Positions 9,268-52,236 of a stretch of 64,000 nt of DNA are shown piece after piece. Where the stretch lies: contig JAGCZH010000016.1 in assembly GCA_017960475.1 (NCBI GenBank), positions 62,001-126,000 of the forward strand, read 5' to 3'. A model generated the notes under the pieces. The model saw only the letters and a program-made list of their open reading frames with translations, was not told where the DNA came from and searched no databases. The first letter of the stretch is position 1, and each line of letters starts with the position of its first letter. The position numbers and the translations under genes were made by a program. Source of the stretch: Bacteroidales bacterium. GTDB lineage: Bacteria > Bacteroidota > Bacteroidia > Bacteroidales > P3.

Positions 9268-10455
9268 ATGAAGCCACTGCAGCAAAAACTTGCAAAATAC
9301 ACTGCTCCCCAAGAGGCAAAAGCCAAAGGGGTTTATCCTTATTTTAGAGAGATTTCCAGTGACCAGGATACTATGGTTACCATGAATGGCCGCAAAGTCC
9401 TTATGCTTGGTTCCAACAGTTATTTAGGTCTTACAAACCATCCAAAGATTAAGGAGGCCGCCAAGGCCGCTATTGATAAATACGGTACAGGATGCGCCGG
9501 TTCACCATTTCTAAACGGTACTCTTGACATACATTTACAACTAGAGAGCATACTGGCAGATTTTCTTGGTAAAGATGGTGTCATGCTTTTCTCGGCGGGA
9601 TTTCAGGCTAATTCAGGTGTTATCCCATGTGTTACCGGTCGTGGAGACTATGTTATCTTCGACGAAATGGATCACGCCTCCATAATAGAAGGCAAGCGTC
9701 TTACTTTTGCCAACACAATAAAGTACAAGCATAACAACATGGAGGATTTGGAGCGTGTGTTGCAGCGTTGTCCTATTGAAGCTGCCAAACTTGTTGTTAC
9801 AGATGGTGTTTTCAGTATGGAAGGAGATGTTGCAAAATTACCCGAAATGCATGCCCTTTGTGAAAAATACCAGGCTACACTTATGGTTGACGAGGCTCAT
9901 GGCCTTGGTGTCTTTGGCCGTGAAGGTCGTGGGGTTACAGACCATTTCAATCTGCTTGACAAAACAGAGCTTATTATGGGCACATTCTCCAAATCGCTGG
10001 CTTCTATAGGTGGTTTCATTGCTGCCGATAAAGACACTATTAACTGGATGCGTCACAATGTTCGCCCATACATATTTACCGCTAGTATTCCTCCTTCAGC
10101 AACAGCATCGGTAATCGCCGCTATTGAAATTATGCGCAGTGAGCCGGAACGCCAGGAGAATCTATGGAAGGTCTCGAATTACGCTCTTAAGTCTTTCCGT
10201 GAAGCCGGCTTTGAGATTGGCAACACTGAAACGCCGATAATCCCTCTATATGTGCGTGACAACGAAAAGACTTTCATGGTTACAAAAATGCTCCTTGATG
10301 AGGGAGTCTTTGTGAATCCTGTCATCTCTCCAGCAGTTCCTCCCGAGGACACACTTATACGTTTGGCGTGGATGGCAACCCACACTATCGAACATGTTGA
10401 TTTTGCTGTGGATAAGACAGTTAAATGTTTCAAGAAACTAGGTCTTTTGCAGTGA
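9268..10455 (+). CDS. spt: Serine palmitoyltransferase (alpha-oxoamine synthase family)
   Basis: A 395-residue PLP enzyme. It carries the family residues His136 (DHASIIEG), Asp208 and His211 (DEAHGLGVFG) and the PLP-binding Lys242 (TFSKSLASIGGF). The N-terminal segment and GSGCAGS-like loop (GTGCAGSPFLNGTLD) closely resemble the Bacteroides enzyme that condenses serine with palmitoyl-CoA to 3-ketosphinganine, the first step of sphingolipid synthesis. Relatives include 2-amino-3-ketobutyrate CoA ligase (KBL), so a KBL label from automated annotation would be misleading. Downstream lie a GNAT-like gene and an opposite-strand SDR. Confidence 0.87.
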   Translation: MKPLQQKLAKYTAPQEAKAKGVYPYFREISSDQDTMVTMNGRKVLMLGSNSYLGLTNHPKIKEAAKAAIDKYGTGCAGSPFLNGTLDIHLQLESILADFLGKDGVMLFSAGFQANSGVIPCVTGRGDYVIFDEMDHASIIEGKRLTFANTIKYKHNNMEDLERVLQRCPIEAAKLVVTDGVFSMEGDVAKLPEMHALCEKYQATLMVDEAHGLGVFGREGRGVTDHFNLLDKTELIMGTFSKSLASIGGFIAADKDTINWMRHNVRPYIFTASIPPSATASVIAAIEIMRSEPERQENLWKVSNYALKSFREAGFEIGNTETPIIPLYVRDNEKTFMVTKMLLDEGVFVNPVISPAVPPEDTLIRLAWMATHTIEHVDFAVDKTVKCFKKLGLLQ

Positions 10456-10459
10456 TAAT

Positions 10460-10489
10460 AACAAGACGTTTCTCATGGAACGTCTTGTT
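10460..10489 (+). terminator. Hairpin between spt and the GNAT-like gene
   Basis: An 11-bp perfect stem (10460-10470 with 10479-10489) around an 8-base loop, starting just after the spt stop and followed by a short T-rich run. It may be a terminator or attenuator. Its position argues for the downstream start at 10531 for the next gene. Confidence 0.6.
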
Positions 10490-10530
10490 TCTCTATGAAC
10501 CATTGTAACCTAAAATTTACTGAAATAATT

Positions 10531-11655
10531 ATGAGCAACACCATTGAAATACGCAAAGTTGTCAGTCGTCGTGACCTAAACAAGTTTATCGCTTTCCCGA
10601 ACGACCTCTTCAAAGATGTGCCTACATACTTGCCTCCTCTTAATCGTGACGAGAGGTCTCTGCTTACCGACAAGAACCCATCCCTTGAACATTGCGATTT
10701 ACAGACATATCTTGCTTTTAGAGACGGTGTTGTTGTCGGCCGCGTTGCAGCCATCATAAACCATAGTGTCAACGAGCATTGGAACAAAAAGGCTGTGCGT
10801 TTTGGTTGGTTCGATTTTATCGAGGATTTTGATGTTTGTAAGGCTCTTTTCGAGAAGGTTGTTGAATATGGACAGTCCAAGGGGATGACAGAAATAGAGG
10901 GCCCGTTTGGATTTACCGACATGGATAAGGAATGCTGGGTTATAGAGGGTTTTGACGCACGGCAGAATCTCAGCACACTGTACAACCCGGAGTATTACAT
11001 CAAATATATTGAGCGCCTTGGTTGCAGCATAAAATGCCGTTGGCAGCAATATAAAATGCACGCCAACCAGCCTATTCCAGACAAAGTTGCCCGCATTAAT
11101 GAATTAATACTGCAACGTTACAACCTCAAACTTCTGCGTTTTAAAAAACGCAAAGAGGTGTATCCATATGCTCACAAGTTTTTCCATACTCTCAACGATG
11201 CCTTCAAGGATCTATACGATTTTGTCCCTATGACCGAGAAGGAGATTGATGTTTATATTAAAGAGTATTTTCCGTTTGTAAATCTTAACTTTGTTAACTT
11301 TATTGTCGACAAGGATGATAATCTGGTGGCTTTTGGTCTTAGTATTCCAAGCCTTACCGAGGCATACAAGAAAGCTAACGGTCATCTGTTCCCGTTTGGT
11401 TGGTATCATCTGCTGCGGGGATTACGCAAATACGACACTATAGATCTGCTGCTCAATGGTGTGCACCCTGATTGGCAAAAAAGGGGAGTTCATTCTATTT
11501 ACTATGCTGAGATGAACCGCAACGCCATCAAGAACAATGTCATATGGGCTTATACCAACCCTCAGATTATTGGCAATGAGGCAGAAAAAATATGGGGTAC
11601 TACCTATCAGACAGAACCCCTTATGAAACGCGCCATTTTTGGCAAGGAGATATAA
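10531..11655 (+). CDS. GNAT-like acyltransferase superfamily protein
   Basis: A 374-residue protein starting MSNTIEIRKVVSRRDL; an ATG 12 codons earlier sits against a hairpin and is less likely. Segments such as EIEGPFGFTDMDKECWVIEGFD and the C-terminal GVHPDWQKRGVHSIYYAEMNR resemble Bacteroidota GNAT-fold proteins often found beside sphingolipid genes. The last segment recalls the Q/RxxGxG/A acetyl-CoA loop in weakened form. An acyl-transfer role in sphingolipid maturation is suggested by its position right after spt, but the substrate is unknown. Confidence 0.6.
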   Translation: MSNTIEIRKVVSRRDLNKFIAFPNDLFKDVPTYLPPLNRDERSLLTDKNPSLEHCDLQTYLAFRDGVVVGRVAAIINHSVNEHWNKKAVRFGWFDFIEDFDVCKALFEKVVEYGQSKGMTEIEGPFGFTDMDKECWVIEGFDARQNLSTLYNPEYYIKYIERLGCSIKCRWQQYKMHANQPIPDKVARINELILQRYNLKLLRFKKRKEVYPYAHKFFHTLNDAFKDLYDFVPMTEKEIDVYIKEYFPFVNLNFVNFIVDKDDNLVAFGLSIPSLTEAYKKANGHLFPFGWYHLLRGLRKYDTIDLLLNGVHPDWQKRGVHSIYYAEMNRNAIKNNVIWAYTNPQIIGNEAEKIWGTTYQTEPLMKRAIFGKEI

Positions 11656-11658
11656 AAA

Positions 11659-12027
11659 TCACATATTGAAATCTATAGCCTCATAATCAATTGAGGCTTT
11701 TTCTTTGTTTGGACATTGGGTTGAGTCTTCAGGATAAACATCATCCCCATATAATTCATTTTCGGAGATAACATCGCCTTCGGTGGCGGTACATGAAGCG
11801 GCAAGACTAATGGTGAAACCTGCCAGAAGCGCAACTTTGCTTAATTTGCCGCGTTTTGAGATGGCATTCTCCAACTGTTGCAATTCTGCATCGCAGCGTG
11901 GGCAGGTACCTTTACAGGGACCGTCGTAATGGCATTCACGCTCCTCCAGTTTAATGCCGTTTTCATTTGCAATATGTTTGCGAATAGTTTTCAGGTATTC
12001 ACAAACCTCTTTACCTTGATTTTCCAT
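11659..12027 (-). CDS. Small protein with Cys-rich N-terminal motif and hydrophobic segment
   Basis: A 122-residue protein of unknown function. It opens MENQGKEVCEYLKTIRKHIA, followed by CHYDGPCKGTCPRCDAEL, a four-Cys cluster (CxYDGxCxGTCPxC) that could bind zinc or an Fe-S centre. After a basic stretch comes a hydrophobic segment (VALLAGFTISLAASC, about residues 63-77), then an acidic tail. I recall similar N-terminal motifs in other Bacteroidota small proteins. The gene ends 3 bp from the GNAT-like gene, convergently. Confidence 0.65.
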   Translation of the reverse strand: MENQGKEVCEYLKTIRKHIANENGIKLEERECHYDGPCKGTCPRCDAELQQLENAISKRGKLSKVALLAGFTISLAASCTATEGDVISENELYGDDVYPEDSTQCPNKEKASIDYEAIDFNM

Positions 12028-12040
12028 AGTATTTGGTAAA

Positions 12041-12841
12041 TTATACTTTATAGTAATCTCTCAATATACCCACCATCCAGTTTCCAGGTATTATTCTTTT
12101 CAACAGCACCGACAGTTTCTGTTCCAAGTTTGCCACCACGTAACGCAGACGAGGTTTGCGAGTGTTTATTATTTTTTCTATTTTTTTAGCCAATATTTCG
12201 GGCTTAAGACCGCCGTTCTCCTCTTTCTCGATGATGGATAGGCTGCGGGCAAAACTTTGCGCATAGGAGGCGTTTTTTGCCGTTGCCTCGCTGTTGAGTC
12301 TTTGTGCAGTGAAATTGGTGGCAAAGTCGCCAGGCTCCACCATGCTCACTTTGATTCCAAAACCGCGTACTTCCGCGGCCATGGCCTCGGTAAAGCCTTC
12401 GATGGCAAATTTTGATGCAGAATAGAAGCCCTGATATGGAAGTCCCATCACTCCTCCGATAGAACTGAGGTTGATTATTTGACCTCCCCCCTGCCCTCTC
12501 ATAATCGGCAGCACGGATTGACAAACATTGACACAGCCCCTGAAGTTTGTTCCCATTTGAAGTTCTATTTCCTCGTTGGTGGCAAGCTCCAGGGAGCCCC
12601 CGATGCCCATGCCGGCATTGTTAACAACGACATCGATACGTCCACACTCTTTCATAATCTGACTTATGGCACTATCCACCGATTGACGGTCGCGGACTTC
12701 CATAACAAGAAAATGTATGTTTTTGTCTTCCTTCTCTTTGCGGCTTGTGCCATAAACGATGTTGCCTTTTGCGGCAAGGCGCTCGGCTATGGCTTTGCCA
12801 AAGCCTGATGAAGCTCCGGTGATAAGGATTACTTTTTTCAT
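12041..12841 (-). CDS. Short-chain dehydrogenase/reductase
   Basis: I start at ATG 12839-12841 (MKKVILITGASSGFG). A longer frame from 12871 would overlap a TATCTTTG promoter box at 12861-12868. The 266-residue product has the NAD(P) motif TGASSGFG, NNAGMGIGG, the catalytic Ser in NLSSIGG and the YSASK motif. Many Bacteroidota SDRs of this form act on lipid or steroid-like ketones. Because spt lies 1.6 kb away, a 3-ketosphinganine reductase role is attractive but unproven. Confidence 0.82.
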   Translation of the reverse strand: MKKVILITGASSGFGKAIAERLAAKGNIVYGTSRKEKEDKNIHFLVMEVRDRQSVDSAISQIMKECGRIDVVVNNAGMGIGGSLELATNEEIELQMGTNFRGCVNVCQSVLPIMRGQGGGQIINLSSIGGVMGLPYQGFYSASKFAIEGFTEAMAAEVRGFGIKVSMVEPGDFATNFTAQRLNSEATAKNASYAQSFARSLSIIEKEENGGLKPEILAKKIEKIINTRKPRLRYVVANLEQKLSVLLKRIIPGNWMVGILRDYYKV

Positions 12842-12860
12842 TTTTTTCTGTTTTGAAATG

Positions 12861-12868
12861 CAAAGATA
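12861..12868 (-). promoter_or_regulatory. -7 promoter box (TATCTTTG) for the SDR gene
   Basis: TATCTTTG followed by CATTT on the minus strand matches TAnnTTTG and lies 20 bp upstream of the ATG at 12841, implying a very short leader and fixing the start choice. A matching -33 TTTG is not at the standard distance. Confidence 0.5.
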
Positions 12869-12986
12869 CACATTATTTCCGAATAATCATTAAATATGCG
12901 TTCTAACCCAAACATTCCGGTTACATTAGACAATATTTATTATCCGTTAGCGTTTTTATATACTATTCATCTTTTTTATAAAAAAA

Positions 12987-31843: not shown

Positions 31844-32857
31844 CTATTTTATATTTTCGAGTATAGCCAGAGCCGCCGAACGGCCGTCGTTTACGACATC
31901 GTTTATTGACATAGGCCTTTTACATGCTCCGCATACGAAGAGGCCGGGTTGAGAAGATGTGCAGTCATTAATGTGTGGGTCTATGGTTTGAGCGAAACCG
32001 TAGTCGCCACATATACCTGCCGCTTTGGCCAAACAGCGGGTTCCTTCAGAGGCCTCCATCCCGACCATCAGCACTAAAAGGTCGGTTGTCATCTTCAGTG
32101 GCAGGCCCATGAGAGTGTCTTCGGCCTTGATCTGCACTTTCCCATCGAATGTGCCAGAAGCTTCAGAAATACGACCGCGGACAAAGCGAACGCCGTATTC
32201 TTGCTGTGACTCGCGGTACATTTCTTCGAAATGCTGTCCCCACATTCTAAGGTCCATATAGAAAATGTATGCTTCAGCATCTGGAATCTGGCGTTTTACC
32301 TCTATAGCCTGTTTCACAGCAGTGACACAGCATACTTTGGAACAATAATGATTGCCTGATTTTTCATCGCGAGAGCCAACACATTGCAAGAAAACTATAC
32401 GTTTGGGTTTCTCGCCTATAGAATTCAGAATCTGATTATAACGAATCATTTTCTCCATCTCTAGCGATGTAACGACACCATTGTAAATACCATAACCTAA
32501 CTCCTCTTTGCGGTGTGCGTCGAAAGGAGTGTAGCCTGTGGCCAAAAGAACCATGTCAGAATAGTGACTGGTATTTTTGTTATCGATGAGTTTCCATCCT
32601 CTTTCGCCTTCTCGTTCAAGTCCAACTATTTCGGTGTCATAATGTTGAACAATGTTCTGGTTAAGAAGTTTTTTATTCATAAGCTCTGCAACATCTGAGG
32701 CTGCTGCGAAGTTTGGAAACAAAAAGGCTTTGTCTGTAATATTTTTGAGAGGTGATGAGGATTTTTCGAATATATTAACGGTTAATCCTTGTTTGGCCAA
32801 AACCGAAGCTGCTTCGATACCAGCAGGACCAGCACCTATGATGGATATTGTTTTCAT
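31844..32857 (-). CDS. HdrA-like FAD/iron-sulfur oxidoreductase
   Basis: I start at ATG 32855-32857 (MKTISIIGAGPAGIEAA); an upstream in-frame ATG at 32911 adds a basic tail unlike the family. The 337-residue product resembles the flavin core of heterodisulfide reductase subunit A. It has an N-terminal FAD motif, VFLQCVGSRDEKSGNHYCSKVCC (the HdrA Cys cluster), YFIYMDLRMWG-like YIFYMDLRMWGQHFEEMYR, and a C-terminal FVCGACKRPMSINDVVNDG. It is much shorter than methanogen HdrA and lacks the extra ferredoxin domains. It is the last gene of the VOC-Hdr operon. Confidence 0.9.
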   Translation of the reverse strand: MKTISIIGAGPAGIEAASVLAKQGLTVNIFEKSSSPLKNITDKAFLFPNFAAASDVAELMNKKLLNQNIVQHYDTEIVGLEREGERGWKLIDNKNTSHYSDMVLLATGYTPFDAHRKEELGYGIYNGVVTSLEMEKMIRYNQILNSIGEKPKRIVFLQCVGSRDEKSGNHYCSKVCCVTAVKQAIEVKRQIPDAEAYIFYMDLRMWGQHFEEMYRESQQEYGVRFVRGRISEASGTFDGKVQIKAEDTLMGLPLKMTTDLLVLMVGMEASEGTRCLAKAAGICGDYGFAQTIDPHINDCTSSQPGLFVCGACKRPMSINDVVNDGRSAALAILENIK

Positions 32858-32955
32858 TTCTTTTTTTTGTTTCTGACGTTGGATTAATAAGCGTGTATAT
32901 TTATTATCCAACTATTTTATTAATAATAATCACTTTGATTTCCAGGACGATTCTA

Positions 32956-34014
32956 CTATTCTTGTCGCAAGCAGTCGGGACGATTGGGACGTTGGATAAG
33001 GCGACCTGATTTGCCTTGGTATTTTTCGTCGGGATTGTAGGCTATACCTATTTTGTTGAACAAAGGTTCACTTTGGACTTGGTGGAGTTGGAATCCCAGT
33101 TCCCAAGGATCGTAACCCAACAGGAGTCCTGTTAGTTCCTCATATGTGAGTACGGGAATGCCAAAGCCTTCTTTGTCGTAAGTCTTATGTTCCATCTCTG
33201 CTATCGTATACTGCCATTTGTCGAGAAACATACAACAACCAGGGCAGTTAGTAAGTATGAAATCCGGTTCATAGGGCTCCATGGATTGGAATTTTTTCTT
33301 TGTGTTGGCTATTGAATAACCGCGGTTCTCTTGTACAAGATATTGGCGGAATCCAAAGCCGCAGCAATGACGTCTTTCTGGATAGTCTATCACTTCACCG
33401 CCCCATGCCTCTATCATGCCTGCCAGAACATAGGGGAACTCAGCTTTGCCAATGCCTCGTTCAGGAAAAATTTTTGCATAGTGGCATCCTATGTGTTCCA
33501 CAACACGCAGAGGTTTACCTGTAAAACGGTTGATGAGCTGATATTTCATCTTTGGTTTGAGGTCGAAACGGAATTTGTAAATCACATCTGAGGGGTGTGC
33601 CAGGTTCTTAGGCGCTTGAAATTCACGCTTTGTTGCCTCCCATAGGTATTGACGTGTCTTGGCAAGGAGTTCGGGATCTTTTTCCCATTTTTCCATGACT
33701 TCAGAAAACACTCCGAATGATGTGACACAGGAGGGCACATAATTTTCGTACCCACATTCTGTCATCAGAGAGAAAAGTCGCGCTACGACAGTCATTGTTG
33801 TATCCAAAGGCACCACATCGCTGTGGTAACCAATGCCGGTGCAGGTGTGTTGGTGCGGGTTGTCGCAGATGTCCTTACCCAGCTCATTGCGCAGAATGCG
33901 AAGGAATGCTGCTTCTGAGCCAGGGAAGAAAGTCTGGCGTATGCAGCTCCGTTCGTAAAAATAATGATCGTCGGCTATCTCTTTCTGATATTCGTTCCAA
34001 TAGCGTTTTTGCAT
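32956..34014 (-). CDS. HdrB-like CCG-domain protein
   Basis: A 352-residue protein of the heterodisulfide reductase subunit B type. The C-terminal CCG unit is complete: Cys177 (EHIGCHYAK), Cys217-218 (RRHCCGFGF) and Cys257/260 (NCPGCC). The N-terminal half has Cys24, 50, 58, 87 and 96, but the expected CC pair reads TCTG, so it may bind a modified or no cluster. HdrB normally carries the noncubane clusters that reduce a disulfide. The substrate in Bacteroidota is unknown. Confidence 0.88.
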   Translation of the reverse strand: MQKRYWNEYQKEIADDHYFYERSCIRQTFFPGSEAAFLRILRNELGKDICDNPHQHTCTGIGYHSDVVPLDTTMTVVARLFSLMTECGYENYVPSCVTSFGVFSEVMEKWEKDPELLAKTRQYLWEATKREFQAPKNLAHPSDVIYKFRFDLKPKMKYQLINRFTGKPLRVVEHIGCHYAKIFPERGIGKAEFPYVLAGMIEAWGGEVIDYPERRHCCGFGFRQYLVQENRGYSIANTKKKFQSMEPYEPDFILTNCPGCCMFLDKWQYTIAEMEHKTYDKEGFGIPVLTYEELTGLLLGYDPWELGFQLHQVQSEPLFNKIGIAYNPDEKYQGKSGRLIQRPNRPDCLRQE

Positions 34015-34097
34015 ATTAAAATAGGGTAAAAATAATATATTTTATTTGGTTTTGTCAAGAGGTTGACTAATTGTTATTCGAGATGAAGTAATTAATT

Positions 34098-35909
34098 TTA
34101 TTGATTGTCTGCCAAGATGTTCGCTGCCACGATTTCGGCAATATCTTTCACGGGTACAGTCTCGGCGCGTTGGAATGCTTTTTTGCACATGGGGCATGCT
34201 GTGGCAATGGTGTCAGGATTTGGAGCAAGCAAGTTGTCTCGTGAAGCGTTGCGAATCTTGGTTTGTTGTTCTATGTCGAGGAGCAGATTACCAAGGTTGA
34301 AACCACAGCAGAGGCTGTGTTCGCGCTCTTCTTTGGTTTTTAATAATGTACTAGTGGCTTTGAGTATGTTGCGTGGTTGATCGTATATGCCGCACCCTCT
34401 ACCCAATTCGCAGGGATCGTGATATACCACACGTTTGTCGTCATGGCGGAGTTTCAGTTTTCCGCTTTCTATCAGCATGTTTATATATTCGGTGTGATGT
34501 AGAACAGGAATGGATAGTTTGTACTCCTTTTTGAACGATTGGTAACATATCGGGCATGAGGTGACCAGCATTGTCGCCTTACTGTTGACAATCATTTCAG
34601 TATTTTTTCTCCTCAATTCAAAAGCCTGGTGTTCGAAGCCTTGTTGCAGCAGAGGACGTCCGCAACAGATGGTGTCTTCTTTGTCCATGTACCAGTATTT
34701 TTGACCTACAGCGTCAAAGATGGTTTCCATTGCTGAGGTGATACCTGGTGTAAGATGGGACATACAACCACCAAAATATGCTATTCTACCTATGGCGTTG
34801 AATGGTTGTACGTTACGAAGATATCCATAGGTACCCTGTTCGTCGAAAGCCACTTTATTCTTGATTCTTACCTGGCGACGTATTATAGATAGGTTTATAT
34901 TGACAGGGCAGTCAGCCACGCAGCGATCGCACATAAGGCAGTTTTCTGCTATAGACTCTGCATTGCGTTGTAACTCAAGGTTTCGTACCGACTGAAGCAT
35001 ATATACACCTTGCATGTTGACAATGCCAAGTTCTTTGTTCATCGGACATCCGTCAATGCATATTCCGCAACGAGAGCAGGCGCTAAGCTCGAACATGGTG
35101 TATCCGGTTTTTTTGTCATTGTCACGCACTCCGAGCTGGCGGAAATATATTAGGAATATCTCTGTAAAGATATGCATGTAGCGCGAGAAAGGCATAAGGC
35201 AGAAGAAGGTGCCTAGGGCAATACTATAGAGTAGCCAACAACTATATTCGAATGCAGGGTCAGCAAGTCCAATGTTTTTTATAAGGTCTCCTAGTGCTTT
35301 AGTCAAGAAACCCCCATTACCGTTAATGGCCGATGTGGCGCCTTCGGAAAGCAGTCGCATGGGGAAGATACACCACAATGCCAGTTTGGCCACACGGTCC
35401 ATGATTGTGTGGCGGGTTGTGCGTTTCATGCCCAAAGGGCGAGACCATACTTTTTTGAACATAGCCAATGTTAAGCCACTTAACACATAGATAAGAAGGG
35501 CGTCCATAAGGTGGGCATAGAACATGGCTTTGGGGAATGCCACAGGGTTGCATTCCGGTTCAAAATAGTTGTAGAATATCGCTATCCAGAAAGGATGACC
35601 ATCAGGATAGGCTAGTTTGGCTTGAACGGCTCCAACAACTATCAGCAGAAACCATCCAAAAGCAAGGCTGCGGTGCATATAGCCCAGAATAACATTTTTC
35701 TTGGTTATACGCCAATGGAGCAGTCCTTCTCTGAAAGCTTCCCAAATGGCTGGCAGGAAACGCCAGGTCCATATGTTTTTGCGTATTGTGGCACGTTGCA
35801 GTTTGTTGAAACCTCGTATCCATCGCCAATATTTCCATACAGAAATGACTAGCAGAAAAAGCACTCCGGCGCAGAAGGGCAATACAAATATTGAAAAACT
35901 GTTACTCAT
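34098..35909 (-). CDS. Membrane-bound HdrD/DsrK-like iron-sulfur protein fused to a cytochrome-b-like domain
   Basis: A 603-residue protein. Residues 1-260 hold about five membrane segments (near 5-27, 80-102, 130-152, 175-195 and 222-258) with several His, resembling the NarI/HdrE-type cytochrome b. Two 4Fe-4S motifs follow (Cys278-288 and 324-334). Two complete CCG units come next: Cys382/415-416/452/455 and Cys500/534-535/572/575. This puts quinone-facing and disulfide-type chemistry in one chain, as in HdrDE or DsrMK. It starts 2 bp after the upstream ferredoxin gene. Confidence 0.9.
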   Translation of the reverse strand: MSNSFSIFVLPFCAGVLFLLVISVWKYWRWIRGFNKLQRATIRKNIWTWRFLPAIWEAFREGLLHWRITKKNVILGYMHRSLAFGWFLLIVVGAVQAKLAYPDGHPFWIAIFYNYFEPECNPVAFPKAMFYAHLMDALLIYVLSGLTLAMFKKVWSRPLGMKRTTRHTIMDRVAKLALWCIFPMRLLSEGATSAINGNGGFLTKALGDLIKNIGLADPAFEYSCWLLYSIALGTFFCLMPFSRYMHIFTEIFLIYFRQLGVRDNDKKTGYTMFELSACSRCGICIDGCPMNKELGIVNMQGVYMLQSVRNLELQRNAESIAENCLMCDRCVADCPVNINLSIIRRQVRIKNKVAFDEQGTYGYLRNVQPFNAIGRIAYFGGCMSHLTPGITSAMETIFDAVGQKYWYMDKEDTICCGRPLLQQGFEHQAFELRRKNTEMIVNSKATMLVTSCPICYQSFKKEYKLSIPVLHHTEYINMLIESGKLKLRHDDKRVVYHDPCELGRGCGIYDQPRNILKATSTLLKTKEEREHSLCCGFNLGNLLLDIEQQTKIRNASRDNLLAPNPDTIATACPMCKKAFQRAETVPVKDIAEIVAANILADNQ

Positions 35910-35911
35910 AG

Positions 35912-36304
35912 TTACTTATGTGATTCTTCATGTGATTCGGCTTTGATTTCTCGCTGAGGACGCCATGTGACAGGCTCTACATTGGCAAGAATACGTCGCA
36001 TGTTAACAATCAGCGAGCGGGTGTTGACTCCTCGAGGACATACTAGTAGACATTTGCCGCAAAGCATACATCTCTGCAGTTTCTCTTCAAGCCCGTTGTA
36101 TTGTCCTCGCTGAAAAGCGGTATGGATTCTCCTTATGTTGTAGTCGGTGAACCCTGCTGCGGTACATGCCGCTGTACAACCGCCACAACCAATGCATAGT
36201 TTGTACGAAGGCACCAATTCAAGCATTTTTTCGACTTTATCGGTCTTGATTTCGTCGAAGTTTATTTGCCGACCTTGAGAAATAGTAAAACCAAATTTGT
36301 TCAT
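35912..36304 (-). CDS. HdrC-like 2x[4Fe-4S] ferredoxin protein (short)
   Basis: A 130-residue protein with two cluster motifs, CIGCGGCTAACT (Cys37, 40, 43, 47) and CMLCGKCLLVCP (Cys79, 82, 85, 89), in the HdrC arrangement. It is the second HdrC-like gene of the operon, 48 bp after the first, and abuts the membrane HdrD-like gene by 2 bp, suggesting it docks on that subunit. The first motif ends CT rather than CP. Confidence 0.88.
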   Translation of the reverse strand: MNKFGFTISQGRQINFDEIKTDKVEKMLELVPSYKLCIGCGGCTAACTAAGFTDYNIRRIHTAFQRGQYNGLEEKLQRCMLCGKCLLVCPRGVNTRSLIVNMRRILANVEPVTWRPQREIKAESHEESHK

Positions 36305-36352
36305 TCTGTATTGTTCTATGTGAAGAGGTATAATAGTGAGGAGAAAACGTTG

Positions 36353-36958
36353 TCAGGCATCTAAGACTTTTTTTCTTAGTTCCATACCTCCAGTTACTTC
36401 AAAAATACGGCGGACTTCGTCAAGGTCTTCTTCCGATATCTTTCTAAGTGCTCCAGCCCCCTCACCATGGTAATTGGCTCCTAATTTTTGAGAGATGTCC
36501 TCAATATTCTCAATATACCATTCCCATATAGGGCCTTGCTCTGGATGATAGTCAGGCTTAACTACGTCGGGGTGAACACAGTATCCTATGTCGAGAATAT
36601 TTTTCCCAATGGTGTTCATCAGTTGTTTCTGCTGAACGCCTTTTTCACTTTCGGTAAAGTAGCCCAATTCTTGTGATGCACGTCTCAAAACGTTAATAAG
36701 CTCTCCGGGTACATTGCCTCGTGGGCATCGGGTTTTGCATGACATGCATTGTCCACAGTACCATATAGTATCGCTTTTCAACAGATTCTCAATTTCCGCT
36801 TCGTCGCCTCGTTGAACGCTGTCGCATATCCGTCGTGGGTCGTAGTCGTAGAATTCCGCCGCAGGACAAACGGCAGTGCATACTCCGCAATTCATGCATG
36901 CTTTCAGGGCTTCATCAGTGCGGACATCCTGTTTTAGATATTCTATTAAATTGCTCAC
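36353..36958 (-). CDS. HdrC-like 2x[4Fe-4S] ferredoxin protein
   Basis: A 201-residue HdrC homologue with CMNCGVCTAVCP (Cys21, 24, 27, 31) and CGQCMSCKTRCP (Cys68, 71, 74, 78), followed by RGNVPGELINVLRRA, a typical HdrC stretch, and a helical C-terminal part. It lies 13 bp after the VOC gene. It probably links the HdrA flavin to the HdrB clusters. Confidence 0.9.
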   Translation of the reverse strand: MSNLIEYLKQDVRTDEALKACMNCGVCTAVCPAAEFYDYDPRRICDSVQRGDEAEIENLLKSDTIWYCGQCMSCKTRCPRGNVPGELINVLRRASQELGYFTESEKGVQQKQLMNTIGKNILDIGYCVHPDVVKPDYHPEQGPIWEWYIENIEDISQKLGANYHGEGAGALRKISEEDLDEVRRIFEVTGGMELRKKVLDA

Positions 36959-36971
36959 AATTATGTGTTTT

Positions 36972-38039
36972 TTATAGTTTCACTTTGTTCATTGCCATCA
37001 TCTTGAAAAATAATTTCGGGAATGCTTTCTCGCGGTTGCGTTTCAGCATATTGATGTATATATGCGGATGTTTTAGAATGGTTAGTTTGTGGGCCTCTAC
37101 GAGTTCAATAAGGGTTCCGTCGGGGTCTTCCACGTAGGTGAAATGACCGCTGGCCTCGCCCATATCAAAATGTTCGTTGCCTTTGCAGCTATCCACGGTA
37201 AACGGGAATCCCAATGCATTACAATGTCGTTCTAGAGCCCGCATATTGGTGACATCAAAGCATATTTGTATAAATCCAGGGTCGCCCCAGTAGCGTCCCT
37301 CATAAATTTTACGTGGTTTGCCGTCAAGGTTTTGCACCAGTTCAATGGTACTCTCGCCGAAAAGAGGGACGAAGGCGCCTTTTCGTTTCTTGCTGGAAGC
37401 CAACAACACACGTCGGAAATTGCCGTTGCCACCAGCCATAAAACCGAAGTCCTCAAATTGACCTTTTATGTCGTAAACAATGGTGTCGTATCCAAGAACA
37501 TCTTTATATAGAGGAATTGTGCGGTCGATATCGCTACATCCAGTCATGGCGCCAACAATGCCGCCACTGAGTCTTTTTTGCTCTATAAATACGTAGGGGT
37601 CTTCAACCACTTGGAAATAGTTCCCCCATGGGTCTTCGACAATAAAACTGGCAATACCCGACGGGGTGTTTTCCACAGGACTCACTTTCTCGTATTTTTG
37701 CAACAGTTCATCATGAAAAGCTTTAACATTGCGGCTCTTTATTTTAGCTGCAAAAATGCCCAAGTCGCCTACCTGTACTCTAAAATTGGCTGGCATTGGT
37801 TTGCGCTCGCTGTATTGCCAAATCTCAAAACCGCCTCCGCCTTGAAGGTTTACAGCTATGCATGCATGTCTTTTTTGTGCTTTGCCTCCTGTGTAAGGGA
37901 GCATACGCTCAGCCACAGTGTCATCCTCGAGGATACGGACATTCATCTGAAACATATCTATATACCAGCTCCACGCTTCGCTAAAATTTTCACAGCCAAC
38001 GCCTACTTGTTGGATTCCTGATACAAAAAAATCTTCCAT
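36972..38039 (-). CDS. Two-domain VOC (glyoxalase/bleomycin resistance) family protein
   Basis: A 355-residue protein made of two VOC domains, about residues 8-155 and 160-325, ending in helices. The second domain has FIQICFDVTN and TLIELVEAHK, the usual metal-ligand Glu region; the first begins IQQVGVGCENF, where the usual His ligand is not obvious. The family includes dioxygenases such as HPPD, epimerases and lyases. It is the first gene of the operon with the Hdr-like genes, so it may act on the same metabolite. Substrate unknown. Confidence 0.82.
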   Translation of the reverse strand: MEDFFVSGIQQVGVGCENFSEAWSWYIDMFQMNVRILEDDTVAERMLPYTGGKAQKRHACIAVNLQGGGGFEIWQYSERKPMPANFRVQVGDLGIFAAKIKSRNVKAFHDELLQKYEKVSPVENTPSGIASFIVEDPWGNYFQVVEDPYVFIEQKRLSGGIVGAMTGCSDIDRTIPLYKDVLGYDTIVYDIKGQFEDFGFMAGGNGNFRRVLLASSKKRKGAFVPLFGESTIELVQNLDGKPRKIYEGRYWGDPGFIQICFDVTNMRALERHCNALGFPFTVDSCKGNEHFDMGEASGHFTYVEDPDGTLIELVEAHKLTILKHPHIYINMLKRNREKAFPKLFFKMMAMNKVKL

Positions 38040-38131
38040 TATTGATATTTTATTAAAATATGCGTTTTGAATAATAATTTTAAAACGATTCCGAATGTAA
38101 AAAATTGTTTTATATTGCGTTAAAAATAAAA

Positions 38132-38159
38132 GAAAACTCTACATGCATGTAGAGTTTTC
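38132..38159. terminator. Perfect palindromic terminator between the LptF/G gene and the VOC-Hdr operon
   Basis: A 28-bp perfect palindrome, two 14-base halves starting GAAAACTCTACATG. On the minus strand it is followed by a T-rich tail, so it fits a terminator for the gene ending at 38295. It would insulate the VOC-Hdr operon from the envelope operon upstream. Confidence 0.75.
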
Positions 38160-38294
38160 CGGTATTACTGGTAATAATAGAATAATCTCGGGGTTAATTT
38201 TTTGGGGGGAATGTATATTAAATAGTGGGAATATTGATTAATGCCATTGATAAAGCAAGGGTCGTTATTAATCTATTGCTATTTGCCGATCACT

Positions 38295-48915: not shown

Positions 48916-49716
48916 TTACATTGGTTTGATTCTTCTTGCCAGTTTGGCTGCGAGACCTGGGCAGAATTGTTTGATGTATGCCATCAGAAGTTCGTAACGG
49001 CCTACAAGGACCTCACGTTTTTTCCTATATACTGCTTTTACGATTTTGTTGGCTGCCTGTTGCGGTGTTACCCCGCCCGCCTGTCCAGCATCCATCTTGC
49101 CGTGTTGCTTGCCGTCTTTCTCAAGAGCATACTTTGAGATATTTGTCTGAACCCGTCCCGGGCATATTATAGTGACACGGATATTCTGGTCGTAGGTTTC
49201 GGCTTGGACGGTCTCAAAAAAACCATAAAGGGCATGTTTGGCTGAACTATAGGCACAGCGTAAAGGGAATCCGAAACGGCCTGCTATACTGGTGGTAACG
49301 ACAAGTTGGCCCCCTCCGCGCTCTATCATTCTAGGCAGAATATTTTTTGTTAGGATAACAGGGGCATAATAGTCGATGTCCATCACTTTGCGGATTACAC
49401 GCATCTCTGTCTCAATAGTTGTGCCACGTTGGCTTATGCCAGCATTATTGTAGAGTATATCGATGCTACCGAACTGATTCCAAGCCTGTTCTGCCAGGGT
49501 GTCCAGTTGATCGCTTTGGGATAGATCGAAAGGTAACGCGGCTGCATCGGGAGCTCCAAGTTCCTTGCAATGAGCCACAACTTCTTCAAGCAAATCGGCT
49601 TCAAGAGCTGTTACTATTACTTTTGCGCCTTCTTGTGCGAAGCGATAGGCTGTGGCTTCGCCAATACCAGACGATGCTCCTGTGATCCAAACTACTTTAT
49701 TATTAAATTTTTTCAT
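48916..49716 (-). CDS. Short-chain dehydrogenase/reductase, candidate 3-ketocapnine reductase
   Basis: A 266-residue classical SDR: TGASSGIGEATAYRFA, LYNNAGISQRG, VVTTSIAGRFG with the catalytic Ser, and YSSAKHALYG with Tyr and Lys. It is the last gene after the cysteate-synthase-like and alpha-oxoamine synthase genes, 32 bp downstream. In that context the natural proposal is NADPH reduction of the 3-keto group of the condensed sulfonolipid base. Family assignment is certain; substrate is inferred from position. Confidence 0.82.
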   Translation of the reverse strand: MKKFNNKVVWITGASSGIGEATAYRFAQEGAKVIVTALEADLLEEVVAHCKELGAPDAAALPFDLSQSDQLDTLAEQAWNQFGSIDILYNNAGISQRGTTIETEMRVIRKVMDIDYYAPVILTKNILPRMIERGGGQLVVTTSIAGRFGFPLRCAYSSAKHALYGFFETVQAETYDQNIRVTIICPGRVQTNISKYALEKDGKQHGKMDAGQAGGVTPQQAANKIVKAVYRKKREVLVGRYELLMAYIKQFCPGLAAKLARRIKPM

Positions 49717-49748: not shown

Positions 49749-50969
49749 CTAGTTTTCATCCACCAAATCCTTGAACCATTGGGAGCGGGAGCATCCTTCG
49801 CCTGTGTTGAGTAGAACGATGTCGCCATCCTTTATCATGCCTTTGTCTACAGCTTGGAAGAATCCGGAATAGCAGACCATGGAGGCAGGTCCCATAAGGA
49901 TGCCGCGAGATCGTTTCATCTCTTTTCCATATTGTGGCAATTCCGCTTCGGCGACACGGATGAATGTACCGCCCGACGAGTGTACCAGAGGTGCGACAAG
50001 AGGATAGTTGCCAGGATTTGCTGCGGTAAGGATCCCGATTCGGGTCTTGATGTTCTTCTTGGCTTCGTATTCCTTTTCCCATCCTGCGGGAAATCCTGCA
50101 GCAGTTGCTTTCTCCCAAGCGGTAACCATAGGGTCGCATTCGTCTTGCTGGACAAGCAGCATACGAGGCAGAGGGGCGCTTGAATCAATCATACCGCAGC
50201 GTTTTAAGTCGCGAAATCCTTTCTCGAAGGCCAGAGGCGAGGTGCCGCCTGCTACTGCTTGCATGTATACCGTTGGAAGCTGTCCTATCTGACGCAGGCA
50301 CTCATAAGCAAGAAGTCGTTTTGACTCGATACGTAGTGGGTCGGTGTTGCCGCCGCTGATAAGCACTTGTTTTTCTTTGTGATATGCTGCGGCTTCAGCC
50401 TTGGCGTCGCCATATCCGCCCTTTGATATGATTATTGGTTGGTTAACTTTTCGAATGGCATCCACGGTGGCGGGATCAATGCAGTTGGGGGCGAATTCAG
50501 TGAAACGTATTCCCGCCTTGGCGCAATATGTGGCGAAAGCAACGCCGGCATTACCAGTCGACGCCAGACAATATTCCTTCACACTGTTTTCTTTCAGCAC
50601 AGAAGCCGCCAAAGCGGCACTGATGTCTTTAAAGGAACCACTGCCATCGTTTTGGTCATTGCGATATACAAACACCTTGCAATCAATACCTTTTGTCTTG
50701 GCATAGGCTTCGAGGTTGTCCCAGCGCTCCATAGGAATAAGACCTTCGCCATAACTGACGATATTCTCTCGATTAACGATAGGTAGTATATCAAAATAAT
50801 AGTCTTGGTATGAGTTGTTTGCAGGCTCGTTGAAACGGAAAGGCATGCTGTCCAGATATTCAACCTCAGCATAGCCGCTTCCGCACTCGCATTGTTGATC
50901 TTGTTTAAACCAAGTGGCAAAGTCAGCTATGACTTTGCCACATTTTTTACATCTTAGTTGGTATTTCAT
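49749..50969 (-). CDS. Cysteate synthase-like PLP enzyme (threonine synthase fold)
   Basis: I start at ATG 50967-50969 (MKYQLRCKKCGKV), 1 bp past the stop of the preceding gene; a longer frame from 51020 would run into that gene. The 406-residue product has an N-terminal Cys4 ribbon (Cys7, 10, 27, 29) and a fold-type II PLP domain with GSGSFKDISAA (PLP Lys), ASTGNAGVAFATYCA and LLNTGEGCSRSQW. It matches the cysteate synthase branch of threonine synthase homologues, making L-cysteate from phosphoserine and sulfite. The next gene gives the obvious use: sulfonolipid base synthesis. Confidence 0.82.
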   Translation of the reverse strand: MKYQLRCKKCGKVIADFATWFKQDQQCECGSGYAEVEYLDSMPFRFNEPANNSYQDYYFDILPIVNRENIVSYGEGLIPMERWDNLEAYAKTKGIDCKVFVYRNDQNDGSGSFKDISAALAASVLKENSVKEYCLASTGNAGVAFATYCAKAGIRFTEFAPNCIDPATVDAIRKVNQPIIISKGGYGDAKAEAAAYHKEKQVLISGGNTDPLRIESKRLLAYECLRQIGQLPTVYMQAVAGGTSPLAFEKGFRDLKRCGMIDSSAPLPRMLLVQQDECDPMVTAWEKATAAGFPAGWEKEYEAKKNIKTRIGILTAANPGNYPLVAPLVHSSGGTFIRVAEAELPQYGKEMKRSRGILMGPASMVCYSGFFQAVDKGMIKDGDIVLLNTGEGCSRSQWFKDLVDEN

Positions 50970-50970
50970 T

Positions 50971-52236
50971 TTAATTATGCTTAATGATATGCATATCAGG
51001 CATCGGCTTGTTGTATACACCTTCGTCGAGCCGTTTCTTAACCTCGCGGAACACCTCGATTGTGCGGTTTGCGTGCTCCATGGTGTGGACAGCGGTGGGT
51101 ATTATGCGCAGCATAATCTGGCCTTTAGGTACAACGGGATATACGACTATTGAGCAGAAGATTCCGTAGTTCTCGCGGAGGTCGACAACGACATTGGTGC
51201 CTTGGTTTACATCGCCGGGGAAGAATACTGGTGTGATAGGAGACTCTGTGACACCGGTGTTGAGACCTTCTGCCTGGAGTGATTTTTGCAGATACGAGGA
51301 GAGTTCCCAGAGTTTTTCGCGGTATTCAGGATGCTGGTTGATAATCTCCAGACGACGTTTGACGCCCCAAACTATAGGCATAGGCAAACTCTTGGCATAG
51401 ATCTGCGAACGCATGTTGAAACGCAGATAGGTAATGATGTCCTCATCATTACAACCGATGAAGCCACCAATGATTGCCATTGTTTTTGCGAAAGCGCAGA
51501 AGTAAAGATCGATATCGTCGGCACAGTTGAAATGAGTGTGTGTTCCGCGTCCTTCAGGACCCATAACACCCATACCATGGGCGTCGTCGATAAGTATACG
51601 GAAGTTGAATTCCTTCTTCAGAGCTACAATTTTGTCCAATGCGCCGAGGTCACCTTCCATGCCGTATACTCCTTCGGTGGCCACAAGTATGCCACCGCCC
51701 TGTTTTTCGGCCAAAGCTGTTGCCTGGGTCAGCTGTTTGCGCAGACTTTCAATGTCGTTGTGTTGATATTTGAAACGTTTTGCGCCGGTTACGCGGAAGC
51801 CATCAATGAGGCATGCGTGTGCCTCACTATCGTATACGATTACGTCACGAAGGCTCACTATTGTGTCTAAAATACTGATTTGGCCTTGATAGCCGAAATT
51901 CAGCAGATAGCCATATTTCTTGTGTGTGTATTCGCATAACATAGCCTCAACTTCTTCGTGCAGAGCAGTGTGGCCGCTCATCATACGGGCACCCATAGGG
52001 TAAGCGAGACCCCAACGGCGCGCACCCTCCTCGTCGGCGGCACGAACCTCAGGATTGTTTGCCAAACCCAGATAATTGTTGAGACTCCAGTTCAAGACTT
52101 TCTTTCCGTTGAATGTCATTTCCGGACCTAACTCACCTTCGAGTTTTGGGAAATAAAAATAACCGTCGGCAAGTTTGCGGTATTGCCCTAAAGGACCGCC
52201 TGTCGACTCTTTAATGCGTTCAAATATATCTTTCAT
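50971..52236 (-). CDS. Alpha-oxoamine synthase, candidate cysteate fatty acyltransferase
   Basis: A 421-residue PLP enzyme with His140 (YDSEAHACLIDG), Asp218/His220 (DDAHGMGVMG) and PLP Lys251 (FCAFAKTMAIIGGF). It belongs to the same family as the serine palmitoyltransferase at 9268 but is clearly a different branch: longer N terminus, LNNYLGLANNPEV and ARMMSGHT. Its coupling to a cysteate synthase gene (1-bp gap) points to condensation of cysteate with an acyl donor, the first committed step to capnine. A role as a second serine palmitoyltransferase remains possible. Confidence 0.82.
   Translation of the reverse strand: MKDIFERIKESTGGPLGQYRKLADGYFYFPKLEGELGPEMTFNGKKVLNWSLNNYLGLANNPEVRAADEEGARRWGLAYPMGARMMSGHTALHEEVEAMLCEYTHKKYGYLLNFGYQGQISILDTIVSLRDVIVYDSEAHACLIDGFRVTGAKRFKYQHNDIESLRKQLTQATALAEKQGGGILVATEGVYGMEGDLGALDKIVALKKEFNFRILIDDAHGMGVMGPEGRGTHTHFNCADDIDLYFCAFAKTMAIIGGFIGCNDEDIITYLRFNMRSQIYAKSLPMPIVWGVKRRLEIINQHPEYREKLWELSSYLQKSLQAEGLNTGVTESPITPVFFPGDVNQGTNVVVDLRENYGIFCSIVVYPVVPKGQIMLRIIPTAVHTMEHANRTIEVFREVKKRLDEGVYNKPMPDMHIIKHN

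Follow-up and report, generated by a model that had tools for sequence, protein, structure and literature searches.

Gene neighbourhoods link a VOC-Hdr operon of Bacteroidales to sulfonolipid synthesis

In a 64,000 nt stretch of DNA from the gut-type genome of a Bacteroidales bacterium, here called the window, we analysed an operon coding for a VOC protein and five Hdr subunits. Comparison of gene neighbourhoods gives good support for a link of both the VOC and the Hdr genes to sulfonolipid synthesis and for their belonging to sulfonolipid loci, a part that was absent from the first-pass annotation of this DNA. Tentatively, and with a confidence somewhat short of calling it probable, we propose that the operon serves capnine/sulfobacin-type sulfonolipid synthesis as an accessory module, in which a quinone-linked Hdr complex would feed sulfite to cysteate synthesis. 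The VOC protein is best explained as a member of the same lipid pathway, of the glyoxalase I type and probably metal-binding. Sulfonolipids are akin to sphingolipids but contain sulfur. In mouse models, those made by gut Bacteroidota are said to dampen inflammation (PMC9304779, available part). Where anaerobes get the sulfonate sulfur from looks like an open question, since the available parts of the sulfonolipid papers PMC11211663 and PMC9304779 do not contain the word sulfite; the word glyoxalase is absent from the same parts, and our literature search found no paper that brings heterodisulfide reductase and sulfonolipid together.

The six genes are packed tightly at 31844-38039, with intergenic gaps of 13, 48, 2, 83 and about 98 bases in the order from VOC to HdrA. 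The features of the operon are:

36972..38039, minus strand: two-domain VOC (glyoxalase-I-like) protein (Pfam/NCBIfam, structure prediction)
36353..36958, minus strand: HdrC1, two [4Fe-4S] ferredoxin motifs (Pfam/NCBIfam, alignment)
35912..36304, minus strand: HdrC2, short two-cluster ferredoxin-like subunit (Pfam/NCBIfam, alignment)
34098..35909, minus strand: HdrD, EtfD-like, with a membrane N-terminal part, a two-cluster ferredoxin domain and two intact CCG domains
32956..34014, minus strand: HdrB (Pfam/NCBIfam, alignment)
31844..32857 (ORF to 32911), minus strand: short HdrA, a flavoprotein with the motif CVGSRDEK...CSKVCC (PDB match, profile scans)
38131..38160, minus strand: intrinsic-terminator-like hairpin, parting the operon from an upstream lptG-like gene (structure-versus-shuffle test)

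All six co-directional open reading frames of the first-pass annotation were found, and Pfam and NCBIfam scans agree with their names at the family level. The hairpin that it had placed on the 5' side as an insulator of the operon is also strong, with a 13 bp stem, a U-rich tail on the minus strand and a z-score of -5.2, none of 200 shuffles being equally stable, and most likely terminates the lptG-like gene. Across the whole region neither terminator-like sites (6 against 6.1 expected from shuffles) nor promoter-like sites (14 against 13.9) were in excess.

Eight cysteines are invariant in HdrC1 (111 sequences aligned) and eight in HdrC2 (12 sequences), and HdrB has an intact C-terminal CCG motif (C177, C217, C218, C257, C260) and an N-terminal one reduced to C24, C58 and C96. 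Four hydrophobic segments were called in the N-terminal part of HdrD, and among 93 sequences H65, H79, H246, eight ferredoxin cysteines and ten CCG cysteines are invariant. HdrD thus has the feature set of the EtfD and HdrDE-type membrane quinone reductases, that is membrane segments with conserved histidines, a ferredoxin domain and two CCG domains, and differs from them in being accompanied by HdrA, HdrB and HdrC instead of ETF. EtfD is said to conduct electrons through Fe-S clusters and heme b to menaquinone, and HdrD looks quinone-reactive on the basis of its sequence, in keeping with the quinone link suggested earlier for this operon.

The more probable start of HdrA is the ATG at 32857, giving 337 aa. 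Residues 19-351 of the ORF align with positions 1-337 of PDB 6tjr_A, a full-length match to sHdrA of Hyphomicrobium, and the Hdr-type match of HdrA to the 777 aa HdrA2 model spans only about positions 320-554. We therefore rejected the electron bifurcation considered in the first-pass annotation, as HdrA is a short form. The A, B and C subunits are homologous to those of methanogen HdrABC(-MvhAGD), but HdrA is truncated and every methanogen Hdr-subunit model of NCBIfam scored under its curated cut-off, far so for the equivalogs (HdrA 215 bits against 1100, HdrB 136 against 450, HdrC1 98 against 350). As HdrA is not full-length and all three subunits score under the equivalog cut-offs, membership of methanogen CoB-CoM HdrABC was rejected.

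A closer likeness is to sHdr of Hyphomicrobium and Acidithiobacillus, which shares a short 6tjr-like HdrA lacking the N-terminal part, HdrB and two HdrC, with sulfite as the predicted product here. sHdr also includes a soluble second HdrB, whereas the present operon has a membrane HdrD with a cytochrome-b-type part; it is tied to a lipid pathway and sHdr to energy metabolism. The lipoate-binding protein LbpA was not found: PF01597, the model that we presume would catch it, gave one match in six of seven genomes, none in G000 and none adjoining Hdr, and by eye the matches resemble ordinary GcvH. Since no LbpA was found in these genomes, we do not count the operon as an sHdr member.

About 11 kb from the VOC-Hdr operon the window contains a second operon:

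50971..52236, minus strand: cysteate fatty acyltransferase (CFAT/SulA), PDB 7u7h E 3e-174 and 28eh E 3e-154
49749..51020, minus strand: cysteate-synthase-like PLP enzyme CysS, threonine-synthase-related
48916..49716, minus strand: SDR, candidate 3-ketocapnine reductase, from operon position and the generic SDR model NF004825 (243.7 bits, cut-off 215)

The CFAT is a close match to a known structure, 28eh being titled 'Cysteate-C-fatty acyltransferase'. The window CysS reaches only 94 bits on TIGR03844 (cut-off 324.9) and is not a cysteate synthase by that model; the non-orthologous CysS2 of related loci scores 457 bits and matches the PDB cysteate synthase 9k3c. The Cys-CFAT-KCR pathway of Chryseobacterium gleum and Alistipes finegoldii is matched by CFAT and SDR homologues, and by a curated cysteate synthase in loci related to the window.

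The main evidence for the sulfonolipid link comes from the loci around VOC relatives, of which we used the best 80 of at least 549 found in a genome scan; these are closest kin, not a random sample, and some are clipped by contig ends. HdrC1, which directly follows VOC in the window and in relatives, occurs in 43 of these best 80 loci and all five Hdr genes in 32, so the neighbourhood check bears out the VOC-Hdr association and rejects an accidental pairing, which the first-pass annotation had named as its own refutation. CFAT is present in 44 and SDR in 60 of the same best 80, and the CFAT-bearing loci hold a cysteate-synthase-like gene in 41 cases and the Hdr set in 20. In ten of the best 80 all five Hdr genes are present and neither CFAT nor cysteate synthase was seen, though locus ends may conceal these genes, as in L086, where SDR lies at the extreme edge. 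Some loci are single nine-gene arrays on one strand:

L154: VOC-CFAT-SDR-HdrC1-B-A-C2-D-CysS2
L160: HdrC1-B-A-C2-D-CFAT-CysS-SDR-VOC
L055: CFAT-CysS-HdrC1-B-A-C2-D-SDR-VOC
L114: VOC-CFAT-CysS-SDR-HdrC1-B-A-C2-D

In L142, L143, L148, L158, L159 and L161 VOC stands with CFAT, cysteate synthase and SDR and without Hdr, and HdrB was not found in these genomes. Conversely, G108 has a linked Hdr set and no VOC match in its genome.

Further we looked at a sample of 198 genomes of the order. Full-length HdrB was present in 64 (the partial HdrB genomes G063 and G012 were left out) and lay within 12 kb of CFAT, cysteate synthase or VOC in seven, the window's own included. In the other 57 it was unlinked, Hdr being mostly a stand-alone operon elsewhere in the order, although HdrC1 still adjoins VOC in G120 and G001, which are among the 57. 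By hand tally, 10 of 63 genomes have VOC and CFAT no more than 15 kb apart. After dropping weak matches (12 of 78 for HdrB and one of 64 for VOC, leaving 66 and 63), we found no genome-wide association of HdrB with cysteate synthase, with 33 co-occurrences against 30.3 expected in the 198 genomes. The unlinked majority and this lack of co-occurrence indicate that the ancestral job of Hdr was not cysteate-specific. In a quick tree of 100 HdrB rows the sulfonolipid-linked copies fall in two separate groups with several gene orders. One clade of linked copies was rejected by an AU test (LG+G4) on a 42-row subset chosen after viewing the quick tree (p 6.4e-7, or 0.0015 without three neighbouring unlinked rows), hence HdrB became linked on two or more occasions, or on one that was followed by losses.

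We also tallied sulfite-related genes at 114 cysteate-synthase loci, keeping 40 of 117 matching genomes for the window-type enzyme (E under 1e-100) and taking 29 CysS2 loci from 51 genomes. Counted without regard to kinship, 27 loci had Hdr alone, 12 sulfate-to-sulfite genes alone, 8 YeiH alone and 66 none; Hdr occurred together with YeiH once (L149) and never with sulfate-to-sulfite genes. L094, L095, L100 and L117 duplicate the contigs of G185, G081, G120 and G001, and as G185 and G081 were each counted twice, 25 of the 27 Hdr-only loci are distinct. The window itself was scored as none, its operons being counted as more than 12 kb apart. The 12 sulfate loci include four based on CysQ, CysN or CysD alone and two on a lone 31% CysH match, and omit L221, whose CysH-family neighbour appeared only in protein clustering. 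For relatives of the window-type CysS the sulfate-to-sulfite genes were nearby in 12 of 39 order-sample loci and in 0 of 27 VOC-anchored loci. The 66 loci without a module, the joint presence in L149 and the distance between the two window operons are caveats to our best explanation.

CysH (NF002537) was searched for in 50 of the genomes behind the best 80 of at least 549 VOC loci, and was found in 4 of 27 with linked Hdr and 1 of 23 others. The window's genome has two PAPS-reductase-family matches, and none above cut-off was seen in the six relatives G041, G081, G185, G108, G120 and G001. A strict rule that Hdr replaces CysH was not upheld, given these CysH counts and the PAPS-reductase-family genes of G000. 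The four linked genomes with CysH and the matches in the window's genome mean that Hdr is not the sole possible sulfite source, and as CysH is missing in 22 of the 23 genomes without linked Hdr, its absence is no predictor of Hdr.

The predicted structure of the VOC protein (pLDDT 92) is a two-domain fold with paired beta-alpha-beta modules, and its top fold match is a dioxygenase. From strand positions and the ligands of glyoxalase I, Q11, E72, Q258 and E312 are candidate metal ligands. Residue 258 was scored as Q in all 80 loci (best 80 of at least 549 relatives). In an alignment of 24 members it is H in 18, with Q in the window, in the Hdr-linked L002-L005 and in the unlinked L019, the linked L055 having H. 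With Q/E/(H or Q)/E as the residues and a habitat presumed to be anaerobic, an Fe dioxygenase is a less likely reading. The protein differs from glyoxalase I and PcpA-type two-domain VOC proteins (10-15% identity), and with 26 bits on TIGR00068 (glyox_I, cut-off 120) it is not a glyoxalase I by that model.

In the mechanism we propose, HdrA (FAD), HdrC1 and HdrC2 (Fe-S wires) and HdrB with HdrD (non-cubane-type cluster sites) would form a complex that generates sulfite by oxidising reduced sulfur, be it sulfide, a persulfide or a thiol, with electrons passing to the cytochrome-b-type part of HdrD and on to menaquinone. Cysteate synthase would take the sulfite to form cysteate, CFAT would yield 3-ketocapnine and the SDR would then reduce it. 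Coenzyme M synthesis was considered as another conceivable use of the cysteate. A broader version, which we hold to be possible with less confidence, is that an Hdr independent of lipoate protein and oxygen, oxidising reduced sulfur to sulfite via menaquinone, was drawn more than once into sulfonolipid synthesis, together with a glyoxalase-type step, in anaerobic Bacteroidales of gut and rumen, the majority of which show no CysH.

The unlinked HdrB of most genomes and the missing co-occurrence with cysteate synthases would also suit a general thiol/disulfide (or flavin)-to-menaquinone module that adjoins sulfonolipid genes through shared conditions, e.g. redox or envelope stress, with no common metabolic step. 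We regard this as unlikely, though worth serious consideration, as Hdr shares single operons of varied gene order with CFAT and cysteate synthase in both HdrB-tree groups. The metabolite model of the first-pass annotation, where VOC makes or uses a compound and the Hdr complex performs its redox step, draws on the position of VOC immediately before HdrC1. The six Hdr-less loci in which VOC accompanies CFAT, CysS and SDR, the VOC-less G108, and the glyoxalase-type site, which predicts a non-redox reaction, make it very improbable.

There are two other readings. The ten loci (best 80 of at least 549) with Hdr and neither CFAT nor cysteate synthase found, and thiols as substrates of non-cubane Hdr clusters, an action established for methanogen HdrB, would fit a direct conversion of a pathway thiol (cysteine or a thiol lipid from it) into sulfonate, bypassing free sulfite. 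Free sulfite is however pointed to by the cysteate-synthase-like genes of 41 of 44 CFAT loci in the same best 80 and by the sulfate-to-sulfite genes beside window-type CysS, and we think this route improbable. We give just as little credence to a reversed Hdr, driven by menaquinol or thiol, that would dispose of excess sulfite as a protection. It would be in line with YeiH standing in Hdr's place in eight loci and beside it in one, YeiH being known to underlie sulfite resistance in Salmonella (PMC12880088, available part). The 12 loci with sulfite-producing genes in place of Hdr fit supply better, and family scans of the six operon proteins show no sulfite reductase. In Hyphomicrobium, YeiH is described in the same organism as sHdr and as probably exporting the sulfite that sHdr makes (PMC12423496, available part), which speaks for sulfite supply and is a further likeness to sHdr.

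The analysis connects two orphans, a quinone-linked Hdr complex and a VOC protein, with the sulfonolipid pathway, and it offers the Hdr genes as a specific candidate for the sulfite step, one that is open to deletion. If sulfite supply is indeed their role, Hdr chemistry would reach beyond energy metabolism into the building of lipids.

Inspection of the open reading frames showed that the six genes of the minus-strand operon at 31844-38039 are real, closely packed and all on the same strand, and the domain and subunit names of the first-pass annotation (VOC, HdrC1, HdrC2, membrane HdrD, HdrB and short HdrA) held at family level in family profile scans. The 5' hairpin it had noted is likewise present, as a strong terminator-like hairpin between the operon and the upstream gene. 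HdrA is the short flavoprotein form, matching 6tjr over its full length, and HdrB has one full and one reduced CCG motif. HdrD, compared over 93 sequences, has a membrane part in which three histidines are invariant, followed by a ferredoxin domain and two CCG domains, both intact. Among solved structures the closest to it is 9ojn (E 1.5e-18), the mycobacterial EtfD, which excerpts of PMC13083937 describe as a wire of Fe-S and heme b leading to menaquinone.

Of the 198 genomes sampled from the order, 63 have VOC and 66 have HdrB, full or partial, once weak matches are set aside. Hdr genes stand next to VOC at 5 of the 30 short VOC loci, one of these being that of the window; among 20 longer loci 4 show this, and a case in genome G041 was found later. 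The neighbours recurring in the remaining VOC loci, namely an SDR, a CFAT-like enzyme, a threonine-synthase-like enzyme, PAPS reductase and a PlsC-like acyltransferase, pointed to sulfonolipids. The window holds the following genes of this kind:

48916-49716, SDR, candidate 3-ketocapnine reductase
49749-51020, CysS, cysteate-synthase-like gene
50971-52236, CFAT, cysteate fatty acyltransferase

The identity of the CFAT is firm. The cysteate-synthase role of CysS rests on genomic context, as by profile score the protein lies outside the curated cysteate synthase family, and its match to a PDB cysteate synthase is weak (4e-8). By hand tally, VOC and CFAT share a contig and are within 15 kb of each other in 10 of the 63 genomes.

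From a genome scan with the VOC alignment the best 80 of 549 relatives' loci were kept; all 80 are from Bacteroidota, mainly rumen and gut metagenome-assembled genomes. Within the fetched flanks of these 80 loci we detected SDR at 60, CFAT at 44, HdrC1 at 43, HdrC2 and HdrD at 36 each, HdrB and HdrA at 32 each and window-type CysS at 29. Many CFAT loci of this set that lack window-type CysS have CysS2 instead, another cysteate synthase that is not its orthologue (the one tested passes TIGR03844 and matches PDB 9k3c), and one or the other is found at 41 of the 44 CFAT loci. As gene order varies between lineages (VOC-CFAT-SDR-Hdr-CysS2; Hdr-CFAT-CysS-SDR-VOC; CFAT-CysS-Hdr-SDR-VOC; CFAT-CysS-SDR-VOC-Hdr), the association has outlasted rearrangement. 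We consider it highly probable that VOC and Hdr are associated with sulfonolipid genes. The parts are ordinary; for the combination, no report pairing 'heterodisulfide reductase' with 'sulfonolipid' was found in the literature searched, which covered few subscription journals, and further searches gave no title or abstract opening joining the two.

Five genomes (G036, G084, G157, G171 and G174) have VOC and window-type CysS and no close CFAT match, which may reflect either incomplete assembly or another acyltransferase. At 9268-12871 the window also encodes a canonical Bacteroides-type serine palmitoyltransferase, which scores 661.7 bits on NF047600 against a cut-off of 640, and after it a 386-aa protein that matches nothing in NCBIfam at E 1e-15 and an SDR; this genome seems able to make sphingolipids as well as sulfonolipids.

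Structure prediction gives VOC two domains with high confidence (pLDDT 92), and in structure comparison the fold comes closest to PcpA-type dioxygenase, glyoxalase I and GLOD4. Q11, E72 and E312 are invariant and position 258 is H or Q; we take these to be the positions of the glyoxalase I metal ligands, and hence a candidate site. In Hdr-free loci, VOC and SDR repeatedly have in their vicinity a PlsC-like acyltransferase that carries a membrane tail (8 of 20 VOC loci, among them L045:7928-9274); this enzyme is perhaps the N-acylation step.

The co-substrate of cysteate synthase is sulfite, and this step is the one in the pathway most plainly in need of sulfur redox. As given in part of PMC11211663, the pathway runs from phosphoserine through cysteate and 3-ketocapnine to capnine. 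The Hdr complex would supply sulfite for cysteate synthesis, a reading we hold tentatively and lean slightly against. Classed by neighbours, the 114 cysteate-synthase loci (two genomes counted twice) showed Hdr only at 27, sulfate genes at 12, YeiH only at 8, Hdr with YeiH at one (L149), Hdr with sulfate genes at none and nothing recognised at 66. The sulfate-gene class requires at least one of sulfate permease, CysN, CysD, CysH and CysQ near cysteate synthase, and at its weak end four loci enter by CysQ, CysN or CysD alone and two by a 31% CysH match alone. Such loci make up 12 of 39 window-type CysS loci in the order sample, against 0 of 27 in the VOC-anchored set (best 80 of 549). Three fetched loci, L219 (10489-16823), L240 and L243, have the full sulfate-to-sulfite set (sulfate permease, CysN, CysD, CysH, CysQ) between VOC and CysS, embedded in the sulfonolipid locus; no sulfite reductase was recognised among the L219 reading frames checked by eye, and sulfate activation at these loci is perhaps dedicated to the lipid sulfonate.

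YeiH confers sulfite resistance in Salmonella (PMC12880088, in part) and is described in a portion of PMC12423496 as a likely sulfite exporter in Hyphomicrobium, which has the sulfur-oxidising system sHdr. A YeiH-family transporter adjoins the VOC-CFAT-cysteate synthase genes at L128 (4997-6349), L130, L132, L134, L137, L144, L157 and L162, in the part of the locus occupied elsewhere by Hdr. At least one of HdrB, YeiH and CysH is present in 49 of 50 tested genomes, and YeiH in 13 of the 15 that lack HdrB versus 15 of the 35 that have HdrB (p 0.005, kinship ignored). Since YeiH is widespread anyway, with 6 of 14 control genomes carrying it, this inverse distribution is only suggestive. Against sulfite supply, the window's own genome has two PAPS-reductase-family matches, which lie next to a CysN-like gene on a different contig. 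CysH is present in 4 of 27 genomes with linked Hdr and missing from 22 of the 23 others, hence its absence alone does not predict Hdr. LbpA, the carrier on which sHdr works, was found neither by lipoate-binding-protein profile search nor in the loci inspected, so the sulfur carrier must differ if sulfite is made. The poor fit of the window's CysS to known cysteate synthases counts against it too, as do two genomes from the same family as the window, G079 and G183, where VOC, HdrB and CysS all lack a match.

Hdr is not specific to sulfonolipids. The stand-alone order HdrC1-B-A-C2-D is the usual arrangement in the 198 genomes, and in 57 of 64 HdrB genomes inspected, some limited by contig ends, CFAT, cysteate synthase and VOC are all absent within 12 kb of HdrB; in two of the 57 (G120, G001) HdrC1 adjoins VOC elsewhere. 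In the same 198 genomes HdrB and cysteate synthase co-occur no better than chance (33 observed, 30.3 expected), VOC and window-type CysS co-occur in 29 against 12.7 expected (p 3e-9, kinship ignored), and VOC and CysS2 do not co-occur beyond chance (13 against 16.2). Eight fetched loci (L168, L173, L178, L180, L181, L185, L191, L200) have HdrC1 and HdrB without HdrA, C2 and D, and in six of the genomes this is an additional copy, a fuller operon being present elsewhere.

When 100 HdrB proteins were placed on a quick tree, the 37 sulfonolipid-linked copies formed two groups among the unlinked ones, needing at least four label changes. A single early gain of the linkage with later losses is less likely. 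The AU test, with groups defined by neighbourhood and a 42-row subset picked after the first tree was seen, rejects the linked copies as one group (p 6.4e-7, or 0.0015 without three nearby unlinked rows). From tree and test together, sulfonolipid loci probably recruited a pre-existing quinone-linked Hdr module on more than one occasion.
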